Shown in pieces: positions 6,840 through 34,431 of a DNA stretch of 64,000 nt. The first letter of the stretch is position 1. Every line of letters begins with the position of its first letter. The DNA comes from Flavobacteriaceae bacterium (lineage in GTDB: Bacteria > Bacteroidota > Bacteroidia > Flavobacteriales > Flavobacteriaceae): NCBI GenBank assembly GCA_002702745.1, contig PABM01000006.1, positions 1-64,000 on the forward strand. Direction: 5' to 3'. A program made the position numbers and the translations under genes. The notes under the pieces are model-generated. The model saw only the letters and a program-made list of their open reading frames with translations. It made no database searches and was not told the origin of the DNA.

Positions 6840-7401
6840 TTAAGAAACATTTAACCAATTCAAATACTTTACTATAGCTTGTTTCAAGAATATTGTTTTC
6901 AACAATGTAATCAAATTTATCCGCTAACAATATTTCATCTTTAGCTTTTTCGATTCTGATTTTTATACTAGCATTTGAATCTAAATTTCTGTTTCGTAAT
7001 CTGTTTTCAAGCTCATCAATGCTTGGTGGCTTAATAAAAATTGTGATAGTTTGTTTTGGAAATTTTTTCTTAATATTTAAACCTCCAATAACATCAATAT
7101 CAAAAACTAAATTTTTATTAACGGAATTTTCTAATTCAGTAGTAAGTGTTCCATAAAAATTATCCTTATAAACCTCTTCCCACTCTACAAATTCTTTGTT
7201 TTCAATCTTTTTAATAAACTCATCTTTTGTTAAAAAGAAATAATTAATTCCGTCAACTTCATTGTTTCTCGGAGCTCTTGATGTTGCTGAAATAGAAAAA
7301 GATAAACTTAAGCTCTTGTCGTTAAGAAGCCTATTAACTATAGTGGTTTTTCCTGATCCGGAAGGGGCTGCAATAACTATGAATTTTGAATTACTCATCA
7401 C
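6832..7401 (-). CDS. gmk: Guanylate kinase
   Basis: A 189-residue P-loop kinase that phosphorylates GMP to GDP. The Walker A loop Ala-Pro-Ser-Gly-Ser-Gly-Lys-Thr-Thr is at about residues 11-19. The GMP-binding segment Ser-Arg-x-Pro-Arg-x-x-Glu-x-x-Gly-x-x-Tyr-Phe-Phe follows at about 41-56. Length is typical. The ATG overlaps the yicC stop (ATGA at 7398-7401), the usual yicC-gmk pairing. Confidence 0.96.
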   Translation of the reverse strand: MMSNSKFIVIAAPSGSGKTTIVNRLLNDKSLSLSFSISATSRAPRNNEVDGINYFFLTKDEFIKKIENKEFVEWEEVYKDNFYGTLTTELENSVNKNLVFDIDVIGGLNIKKKFPKQTITIFIKPPSIDELENRLRNRNLDSNASIKIRIEKAKDEILLADKFDYIVENNILETSYSKVFELVKCFLNG

Positions 7402-33313: not shown

Positions 33314-33352
33314 TTACTCCACCGTTACAGATTTAGGTTTTCCAACCCCAAC
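33314..33352 (-). repeat. glmS 3'-end repeat, outermost copy (R1)
   Basis: Read on the minus strand, this encodes Val-Gly-Val-Gly-Lys-Pro-Lys-Ser-Val-Thr-Val-Glu followed by TAA (33314-33316). The last six residues equal the C-terminus of GlmS. On the plus strand the inner part is TTCCAACCCCAAC (33340-33352). The copy abuts the stop of the gene ending at 33313, so it probably marks where glmS ended before the two accessory genes were inserted. Confidence 0.75.
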
Positions 33353-33370
33353 ACCATTTCTTAGATATAG

Positions 33371-33446
33371 TGTCGTGACTATGTTATAAAAATGTAGTCA
33401 GATGTCCTGGGAGTGTCGTGGAAATGTCGTTGGGATGTCAAGAGAA
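33371..33446 (+). repeat. Seven-copy 11-bp iteron array upstream of the XRE gene
   Basis: TGT triplets occur at 33371, 33382, 33393, 33403, 33414, 33425 and 33436, that is, with spacings of 11, 11, 10, 11, 11 and 11 bp. The last four units share TGTC, with consensus TGTCGTGGRAA. The phase places every unit on one face of the helix. It ends 30 bp before the XRE start, so it is a likely autoregulatory operator, though a replication iteron or slipped-strand repeat is possible. Confidence 0.7.
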
Positions 33447-33475
33447 ATAACAAATTATTATATAAATTTGTTCTC

Positions 33476-33772
33476 ATGGTATTAGGAAATAGAGTTAAAG
33501 AATTAAGATTAAAAGAAGGATATTCACAAAAGGATTTATCAGTTAAATCTGGATTGTCAGAAAGAACTATTCAACGGATAGAAAAAAACGAGGTTAGTCC
33601 AAACCCTCATACATTAAAATTATTGGGAGAAATATTTGAAGAAAATTTTCACCAATTTGAAAATGAAAACCAATTTGTGAAAAATAAAAAAAAGATGAAT
33701 AAAATATATGTTCTGTGGAACAGTGTCATCAACTTTAAAATCAATATTTTAAAATTCTTCTTAAAAAAATAA
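33476..33772 (+). CDS. Small XRE-family helix-turn-helix regulator
   Basis: A 98-residue protein from ATG 33476. The open frame extends to a GTG at 33413, but that lies inside the iteron array and adds no homologous residues. The HTH covers about residues 4-57 (Leu-Gly-Asn-Arg-Val-Lys-Glu-Leu-Arg, Ser-Gln-Lys-Asp-Leu, Ser-Glu-Arg-Thr-Ile-Gln-Arg-Ile-Glu), a Cro/CI-type fold. The C-terminal tail is Lys/Phe-rich and hydrophobic, possibly membrane-associated. It sits alone between two glmS-end repeats; control of its own promoter through the iterons is inferred. Confidence 0.85.
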   Translation: MVLGNRVKELRLKEGYSQKDLSVKSGLSERTIQRIEKNEVSPNPHTLKLLGEIFEENFHQFENENQFVKNKKKMNKIYVLWNSVINFKINILKFFLKK

Positions 33773-33785
33773 TTAGAAAACTTAA

Positions 33786-33824
33786 TTATTCCACAGTCAA
33801 AGACTTAATGATTCCAACCCCAAC
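33786..33824 (-). repeat. glmS 3'-end repeat, middle copy (R2)
   Basis: On the minus strand this encodes Val-Gly-Val-Gly-Ile-Ile-Lys-Ser-Leu-Thr-Val-Glu and TAA (33786-33788). It matches R1 at about 33 of 43 aligned bases, with an identical TTCCAACCCCAAC block (33812-33824). Further upstream both copies share a looser Tyr-Leu-containing frame. It begins 13 bp after the XRE stop and separates the two accessory genes. Confidence 0.75.
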
Positions 33825-33936
33825 TAGATTTAAATATATCCCTATATTAAAATTTAGTTCTCTGTTAACATTAAAAAAAGGAAAAACTTTAATTCAAAAT
33901 TATTCAGACTTTGAAATTCAAATAATTCAAAATAGA

Positions 33937-34386
33937 TTATTTAGTTTTTGATTTGAAATTGATTTGAAATTGAACTCTCTTATTTTGGATTAGGGAAGTG
34001 TACTCATTATAGTCTAAGAGAATATATTTTTTAAGTATTGTATGAACTATACACAATCTATAATTATTAATAGATTTAAATAAGTTTTCTTCATTTTCTG
34101 TAAATCCAAAAAAAACACCATATGGTAGTTCTTTCACAGATTTTGATGATGTTGTTTTAATCTCTATCAGAGTAAAATCTTCTTTTGATTTAACATCTTC
34201 AAAAGAGTTAACATTTAAAAGAACCCCATCAACACTCCTTGAGTATTTTTTATAGTCAATATTAAGTATATCGTATAATTTTTTAAGTTGTAATTTATTT
34301 GGAACATCAAATCCGTTAAGAAGATTTCTTAGTATCGTTATACCAAGTTTTTCAGTTTTAAGGTTTTTAATATTTTGTTCCCTCAT
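33937..34386 (-). CDS. Small PD-(D/E)xK nuclease-like / DUF3883-like protein
   Basis: A 149-residue protein without signal peptide. Asp53 (Ser-Val-Asp-Gly-Val), then Glu75-Ile-Lys77 on a following beta strand, fit a PD-(D/E)xK nuclease core. The Thr-Thr-Ser-Ser then Phe-Gly-Phe-Thr-Glu-Asn-Glu segment and the Tyr-Arg-Leu-Cys-Ile-Val strand resemble the DUF3883 ('protein NO VEIN' C-terminal) domain often seen in restriction and defence proteins. It begins 24 nt after the glmS stop on the same strand with no visible ribosome-binding site, so it is probably transcribed with glmS. The function is unproven. Confidence 0.6.
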   Translation of the reverse strand: MREQNIKNLKTEKLGITILRNLLNGFDVPNKLQLKKLYDILNIDYKKYSRSVDGVLLNVNSFEDVKSKEDFTLIEIKTTSSKSVKELPYGVFFGFTENEENLFKSINNYRLCIVHTILKKYILLDYNEYTSLIQNKRVQFQINFKSKTK

Positions 34387-34395
34387 GTTAAATTC

Positions 34396-34431
34396 TGGGG
34401 TTGGAAAAAATCACTCGACTGTAACAGACTT
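34396..34431 (-). repeat. Current glmS 3' end with adjoining inverted block (R3)
   Basis: 34411-34431 encodes the true GlmS C-terminus Lys-Ser-Val-Thr-Val-Glu with stop TGA. Just past the stop, TGGGGTTGGAAAA on the plus strand (34396-34408) is the exact reverse complement of the 13 bp TTTTCCAACCCCA at 33338-33350. The insert between the outermost and current glmS ends is therefore bounded by a 13-bp inverted repeat and flanked by direct copies of the glmS end. Confidence 0.75.

Follow-up and report, generated by a model that had tools for sequence, protein, structure and literature searches.

Single-gene cassettes behind glmS in flavobacteria and their probable insertion, in trans, by a self-splitting serine integrase

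Why should the 3′ end of glmS, an essential cell-wall gene, recur, in one orientation and with one accessory gene between successive copies, in the chromosome of a marine flavobacterium? The window (the whole 64-kb stretch of DNA analyzed) contains the glmS 3′ end three times on the same (minus) strand, at 34411, 33786 and 33314. The gene's own end is AAGTCTGTTACAGTCGAGTGA (34431-34411), copy 2 is AAGTCTTTGACTGTGGAATAA (33806-33786), which codes for Lys-Ser-Leu-Thr-Val-Glu-stop (KSLTVE-stop), and copy 1 is AAATCTGTAACGGTGGAGTAA (33334-33314), which codes for KSVTVE-stop. A degenerate KSxTVE-stop pattern, comprising the glmS end with wobble positions free, was scanned on both strands and occurred at exactly these three places in the window, which confirms the positions and strand of the copies reported in the earlier note on this DNA. 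In control stretches from behind glmS in the wider family (77 stretches, 716 kb) the pattern was present 71 times, as 70 glmS own ends and one near copy in genome G272. Among window ORFs of at least 70 aa, only glmS had its last seven codons repeated (at least five of seven residues, no more than 3 kb downstream).

Read along the minus strand, glmS and its stop are followed by the arm TTTTCCAACCCCA, the 149-aa nuclease-like gene, the arm TGGGGTTGGAA and the KSLTVE-stop copy. Beyond this copy are the XRE gene on the opposite strand, the arm TGGGGTTGGAAAA, the KSVTVE-stop copy and the stop of the convergent core gene (Table 1). One accessory gene is therefore present between each pair of copies, as the earlier note had proposed. 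The inverted arms at the insert ends are TTTTCCAACCCCA (33338-33350), TTCCAACCCCA (33812-33822) and TGGGGTTGGAAAA (34396-34408), and the arm type of the window cassettes is TTCCAACCCC. The arm at 34396-34408 pairs perfectly over 11 bp with 33812-33822 and over 13 bp with 33338-33350.

Table 1. Coordinates of the glmS locus, its displaced end copies and the two inserts in the window.
Feature	Position	Strand	Remark
Convergent core gene, 482 aa	31865..33313	+	adjoins glmS directly in relatives without inserts
Element 1, 472 bp: XRE gene and displaced glmS-end copy 1	33314..33785	+	
Displaced copy 1, putative attR of element 1	33314..33334	-	abuts core-gene stop
Right outer arm of element 1	33338..33350	-	
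Element 1 cargo: 98-aa XRE-family HTH protein, PF01381	33476..33772	+	
Element 2, 625 bp: one gene and its own displaced glmS-end copy	33786..34410	-	
Displaced copy 2 (KSLTVE-stop), putative attR of element 2	33786..33806	-	
Right end common to element 2 and the L012 NERD cassette, 86% over 111 bp	33786..33896	-	
Right outer arm of element 2	33812..33822	-	
Element 2 cargo: 149-aa nuclease-like protein, PD-(D/E)xK-type residues	33937..34386	-	
Left outer arm of element 2, minus strand TTTTCCAACCCCA	34396..34408	-	immediately after glmS stop
glmS, 615 aa	34411..36258	-	dyad center same in five sites
Occupied attachment site, last 21 bases of glmS	34411-34431	-	predicted
Central dinucleotide AC of Thr codon	34421-34422		predicted; in glmS end

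The XRE protein of element 1, for which a longer ORF is possible from GTG 33413, elicited one weak match among 21 genomes of the window genus. The 149-aa protein of element 2 was without a match in a Pfam search. The PD-(D/E)xK motif consists of D ... E-x-K residues; D53, E75 and K77 of the protein are invariant both in 15 and in 27 sequences, and the predicted structure is compatible with this fold. A methyltransferase gene was sought beside the nuclease as a type II partner and none is present within element 2. The protein has 381 database homologs at E ≤0.001, and the best 120 of these derive from flavobacteria and also, at 63-66% identity, from a PVC-group bacterium and Cycloclasticus. Homologs are present in 6 of 395 sampled genomes of the order and only two exceed 60% identity. 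Genome G430, which belongs to a family of 12 genomes different from that of the window genus, encodes the best of these homologs (82% identical); its gene is located behind glmS, beside a glmS-end copy, in an element that bears the IntC gene described below. The second, in G438, lies behind a helicase gene and no glmS-end copy was seen nearby. Phage and plasmid collections yielded no match to the nuclease, and plasmids none to the window region. More distant homologs (~40%) were noted in L185-L192. Several are neighbors of XRE genes, and a few of them additionally adjoin a C5- or D12-like methyltransferase gene (identified by eye), an arrangement familiar from type II restriction systems.

The region behind glmS was compared in relatives. 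A GlmS search of genome contigs produced 30 loci, and the count covered 17 related ones in which the glmS 3′ end could be seen; L021-L027 and L030 were left out, as was L028, in which the 3′ end is missing. Four more distant loci outside the 17 (L013, L014, L016 and L020) had no second glmS-end copy. A clean empty site, in which the glmS stop abuts the same core gene, was found in 7 of the 17 (L001-L005, L007 and L019), the very junction that the outermost copy forms with this gene in the window. The nearest relatives, L001 and L002, possess the empty site with flanking genes that are 92-95% identical to those of the window. Inserts of 13 bp and 56 bp are present behind glmS in L008 and L009, respectively, the latter with a terminal degenerate glmS-end copy (18/21 positions). 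The L006 insert measures ~1 kb and contains a single gene plus a degenerate copy (17/21) that is at the level of shuffled sequence, yet lies exactly at the junction. The 1150-bp insert in L012 carries a NERD-domain gene (PF08378), the protein of which had four weak phage matches, and L017 is the empty counterpart of this locus. Other neighboring genes were located behind glmS in 5 of the 17 loci. Element 2 and the L012 element share their right end, but their cargo is unrelated. Among the 21 genus genomes a search with right-end DNA yielded only L012 clearly (E 2.5e-31); the next match (E 9e-4) was dismissed as it looked like AT-rich chance similarity.

Within the wider family GlmS was matched in 287 of 299 genomes. 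Stretches behind glmS, mostly of ~10 kb, were fetched for 77, and the sole convincing near copy was that in G272, 36 bp away. Weak candidates were L200 (18/21 positions at 44 bp) and L197 (19/21 at 9.5 kb). Nine other loci of the G430 family (0.9-11.9 kb) had no second copy at 19/21. The comparison of relatives advocated in the earlier note disclosed empty sites, a different cassette (NERD, L012) and variation in copy number. Its proposal of repeated insertion of small cassettes that restore the glmS end is borne out by the 7 of 17 empty sites, by L012 against L017, and by rows with up to four glmS ends. The further idea that each displaced copy is the old gene end holds for the displacement, but not for a purely host origin: the left part of the copy is element-borne in element 2 and L012, where it reads TTAAGTCTTTGAC against Val in the listed host glmS genes.

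These hybrid copies bear on two alternatives. As glmS is the target of Tn7 and the inserts described here have inverted ends, Tn7-like or other DDE transposition beside glmS might have left terminal inverted repeats. However, Tn7 inserts downstream of the stop codon and duplicates only a short target, whereas here ~21 coding bases with element-borne differences have been displaced, and transposition proteins were absent among the cargo proteins given to Pfam. This explanation is therefore highly improbable, and the argument in the earlier note that a Tn7-type insertion does not fit is upheld, as ~21 coding bases are repeated and the differences in the copies are element-borne. The second alternative, integration of a casposon- or CRISPR-like kind with duplication of the target, draws on new copies adjoining glmS in the manner of leader-proximal repeats. 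A duplicated target should match the glmS of its own host, but the window and L012 copies share TTAAGTCTTTGAC, unlike either host, and this alternative is barely credible.

Judged by sequence, the glmS-end copies look like recombination sites. When the two ends of an insert are joined they form an imperfect dyad centered on the AC of the Thr codon in Lys-Ser-Val-Thr-Val-Glu. The center is identical in five sites, namely window elements 1 and 2, L012, G430 and the uncut L266 site discussed below, with longest arms of 13, 11, 12, 9 and 11 bp, respectively. Arms of these lengths were reached in 0, 0, 0, 22 and 1 of 3000 shuffles. The two window dyads share one half because the right end of element 1 was paired with the left end of element 2; the own left end of element 1 has no inverted arm. 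Serine-integrase attP sites are ~50 bp, and element 2 displays a candidate dyad attP of ~50 bp with the fixed center. Scored instead by total matches the dyad is weak (154/2000 shuffles for element 2 and 150/2000 for L012).

The outer arms vary between elements (CCAACCCC, CCAACACAAA, TAATGAAGT, GTATCCG and TCGACCAT), and pairing is kept within each element. This covariation was assessed with 50 end copies from 31 loci, identified with a stricter pattern and compared in all upstream same-locus pairs, some of the copies likely being related. Perfect arms of 9 bases or longer were present in 9 of 26 same-locus pairs (17 had no such arm) compared to 24 of 2400 between-locus pairs, which none of 500 permutations reached. 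When neighboring end-copy pairs were considered, arms of at least 7 bases were present in 6 of 23, in a list that included a spurious L298 end and broken pairs. A history in which the glmS end merely decayed or was duplicated in tandem, and other genes arrived by illegitimate recombination, would accommodate the short scars in L008 (13 bp) and L009 (56 bp) and the 36-bp spacing in G272. It is very unlikely in light of the covarying arms, the same site on a circular element, and the same cargo and site in another family.

Which enzyme might act at these sites? Relatives of serine or tyrosine recombinases were not found among the 66 window ORFs of at least 80 aa, which agrees with the statement in the earlier note that no integrase is present, and the window cassettes encode no serine recombinase with PF00239, PF07508 and PF13408. 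PF00239 was detected in none of the 21 window-genus genomes, which are mostly partial; the same search was positive in 10 of 14 control genomes. Most of the 21 possess one or two PF00589 enzymes of Xer-like length. With no PF00239 match in these genomes, and with PF00589 enzymes of Xer-like length in most of them, action in trans would be needed. One candidate is a tyrosine recombinase (host XerC/XerD, or a phage integrase in trans) with the glmS end as core site. Restoration of a gene end is classic for tyrosine integrases and fits this candidate, as do the Xer-like enzymes of the genus and the additional 347-353-aa tyrosine recombinase in two of its genomes. A tyrosine recombinase is nonetheless unlikely: the dyad extends ~25 bp either side of one center, which is the size of a serine-integrase attP, the only enzyme found with the site is a serine recombinase (L266), and the extra tyrosine recombinases belong to arrays with unrelated repeats. 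XerC/XerD was dropped as the enzyme because the dyad size and the site-bearing enzyme point to a serine recombinase. Separately, attC-like hairpins were considered and set aside; the right-end hairpins were no better than shuffles.

The 347-353-aa tyrosine recombinases are part of a second cassette-like system in the same genus, in L194 (G013) and L195 (G318); L196 (G008) has only weak broken matches to the enzyme. The recombinase's own 3′ end, TTAAAAGARGAAGATATGCCTATGATTTAG, recurs several times in ~16 kb, and a repeated gene start with the signal peptide MKKLILLLFIPL fronts single genes. This arrangement resembles an integron-like array that serves secreted proteins. Near prs (L240:547-2154), we also observed a large serine recombinase of 535 aa with the C-terminus GGNRTRT, which presumably resembles an antisense tRNA reading; perhaps this is another recombinase with a site at its own gene end.

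A scan of viral contigs with an alignment of IntC, a 106-aa protein encoded at the terminus of the G430 element, yielded one locus, L266, on a 7404-bp contig. The contig has a 77-bp terminal direct repeat, which indicates that L266 is circular and 7.3 kb in length. It encodes a 733-aa large serine recombinase with PF00239 at residues 26-180, PF07508 at 205-302 and PF13408 at 323-390. The recombinase ORF reads through an antisense glmS mimic at codon 600 of 733, and IntC corresponds to its C-terminus (~130 codons). In glmS sense the mimic is AAGTCCGTTACTGTTGAGTAG, coding for KSVTVE-stop, and it is surrounded by 11-bp arms about the common center. With the site at codon 600, integration at glmS would separate codons 1-600 from IntC. 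Splitting need not inactivate the recombinase as all three Pfam domains precede the site. A second viral scan with the L266 enzyme as query revealed no further intact enzyme, so that the total is one, on one contig, and viral-contig scans with the right end of element 2, the left end, the hairpin, GlmS and the nuclease produced nothing.

IntC has 239 database homologs. Among the best 120 of these, 49 frames read the antisense glmS end (STVT[DE]-like) and then element sequence. Of the 395 genomes sampled from the order, presumably Flavobacteriales, 30 possess IntC, several with two to four matches. When the 30 IntC stretches were inspected at a threshold of at least 19/21 positions, 20 contained a displaced glmS-end copy, 9 only the own end of glmS, and one (G532) neither. 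The glmS gene itself is located in 19 of the 30 stretches, and the displaced copy in G453 is without a stop codon. Among the nine genomes with only the own end, some IntC genes are strand-reversed relative to those in arrays. Two tandem elements in G430 share a 250-bp left end (91.6%), so that stacking next to glmS is seen directly there, and the longest rows comprise four glmS ends, the gene and three copies (L300 and L304). Cargo consists of one to a few genes between ends and most elements are 0.5-2 kb. Examples are a C5 cytosine methylase and a neighbor of unknown family in L300, HNH/DUF3427 in L311, GNAT in L322 and MORN in L304, along with many small secreted-looking proteins. The right ends in the window have no recognizable IntC; that of element 2 has an antisense open frame, but its alignment to IntC is confined to the 9 residues of the site itself. 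Sequence comparison identified no convincing solved relative of the 106-aa IntC, and its model (pLDDT 79) had no fold match at E 0.001, with serine-integrase chains appearing only at E ~2-4. No N-terminal recombinase part was found at genomic arrays in a test of only moderate sensitivity: the L240 serine recombinase escaped the L266 N-terminal query and was recovered with a shorter one.

Certain arrangements at these loci are recorded as observations. IntC homologs on the same strand as glmS, in contrast to those of the arrays, lie close behind it at L312:6424-6705, L313:5961-6206 and 6932-7210, L315:6578-6889, L323:52-243 and L139:5927-6328, the last a distant homolog in G312 of the wider family. 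L312 and L313 additionally have a resolvase-type serine recombinase of 178-198 aa. Longer displaced copies, RNLAKSVTVE or close to it, follow unrelated sequence in L297, L308, L324 and L325, in stretches without glmS, and possibly are a second att type or secondary sites. The two G457 contigs, L300 and L314, each contain a glmS 3′ end and may reflect a mixed bin.

We favor, at a probability of roughly three in four, the view that a self-splitting serine integrase, supplied in trans, placed the cassettes at glmS; the activity of the enzyme and its link to the window are inferred from sequence comparison. The glmS 3′ end would be the chromosomal attB of a family of integrative elements, and attP would be an imperfect ~50-bp dyad containing a glmS-end mimic. 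Because attP carries the mimic, recombination at the AC of the Thr codon would rebuild glmS and leave a hybrid copy at the far end. Integration would cut the recombinase gene into ~600 N-terminal and 130 C-terminal codons (IntC), and what persists in genomes would be the ends, one to a few cargo genes and, in many cases, IntC. New elements would enter next to glmS to generate stacks. The sites, the empty sites, the stacking, the covarying arms, the attP within the recombinase gene and the proximity of IntC to glmS ends are visible in the sequences themselves; catalysis at glmS by an L266-type enzyme, crossover at the AC and mobilization in trans are inferred. The window would then comprise two non-autonomous cassettes (nuclease and XRE regulator) served in trans by a recombinase encoded outside the window. 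Both are assigned to the family on the basis of site, geometry, arms and shared cargo, and probably were moved by a related enzyme of a different arm type.

A broader proposal, to which we give slightly better than even odds, is that these are bacterial suicidal integrases of the serine class in which the glmS-mimic attP splits the enzyme. The remnants would constitute a gene-capture platform at glmS for nuclease, methylase and surface genes in marine flavobacteria, with arm specificity as a diversifying lock-and-key. If correct, the proposal would explain how streamlined ocean bacteria without their own recombinase gain and stack single genes, some for nucleases or methylases, and would make the location of the stacks predictable, at a single site. 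With a self-splitting serine integrase, a strategy described as exclusively archaeal would have originated a second time, independently, and the persistence of self-destroying integrases could then be tested in a further class of enzyme. Grouped around a common core, the arm pairs would provide a natural series for studies of serine-integrase specificity.

How does the glmS system compare with known elements? CIMEs are att-flanked non-autonomous inserts that accumulate in tandem and whose enzyme is located elsewhere. The glmS cassettes resemble CIMEs and other enzyme-less elements in being att-flanked, non-autonomous and tandem, but are far smaller (0.5-2 kb mostly) and feature IntC as a recurrent remnant. 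Integrons stack single-gene cassettes at one site with the newest next to a fixed end, and the glmS stacks similarly are single-gene units at one site with the newest at the fixed end. Unlike integrons, the glmS arrays are without a platform integrase, no relative of four tyrosine recombinases being present among the 66 window ORFs, and an essential gene supplies the site, its end being copied in each unit. The Tn7 family also targets glmS, at attTn7 (PMC10293859), whereas here codons are duplicated and restored and there is no Tns protein among the scanned cargo.

In SSV-type suicidal integrases the site is inside the integrase gene and integration separates int(N) from int(C); a 2021 review (PMC8371274) also reports that the integrase is lost after integration and that several elements integrate in tandem at one locus. 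According to the same text these enzymes are tyrosine recombinases with a catalytic int(C) and are exclusively archaeal. L266 likewise has its attachment site inside its own integrase gene (codon 600 of 733), but its enzyme is a serine recombinase with the catalytic part N-terminal and its target gene is bacterial. In a serine-integrase catalogue (PMC10083194), the word glmS is absent from the main text and the high-quality selection kept enzymes of 400-650 aa; no account of a glmS-end cassette system was found in the open-access literature searched. Large-serine-recombinase elements of the phiC31/Bxb1 type, the subject of that catalogue, share with the glmS system the resolvase, recombinase and zinc-ribbon domains, the dyad attP, and attL and attR at the insert ends. 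The glmS system differs in that the predicted attP lies within coding sequence, before the C-terminal domain, and in its stacked enzyme-less inserts of one to a few genes. Overall, the glmS system is rated as serine-integrase elements with a self-splitting enzyme combined with integron-like stacks.
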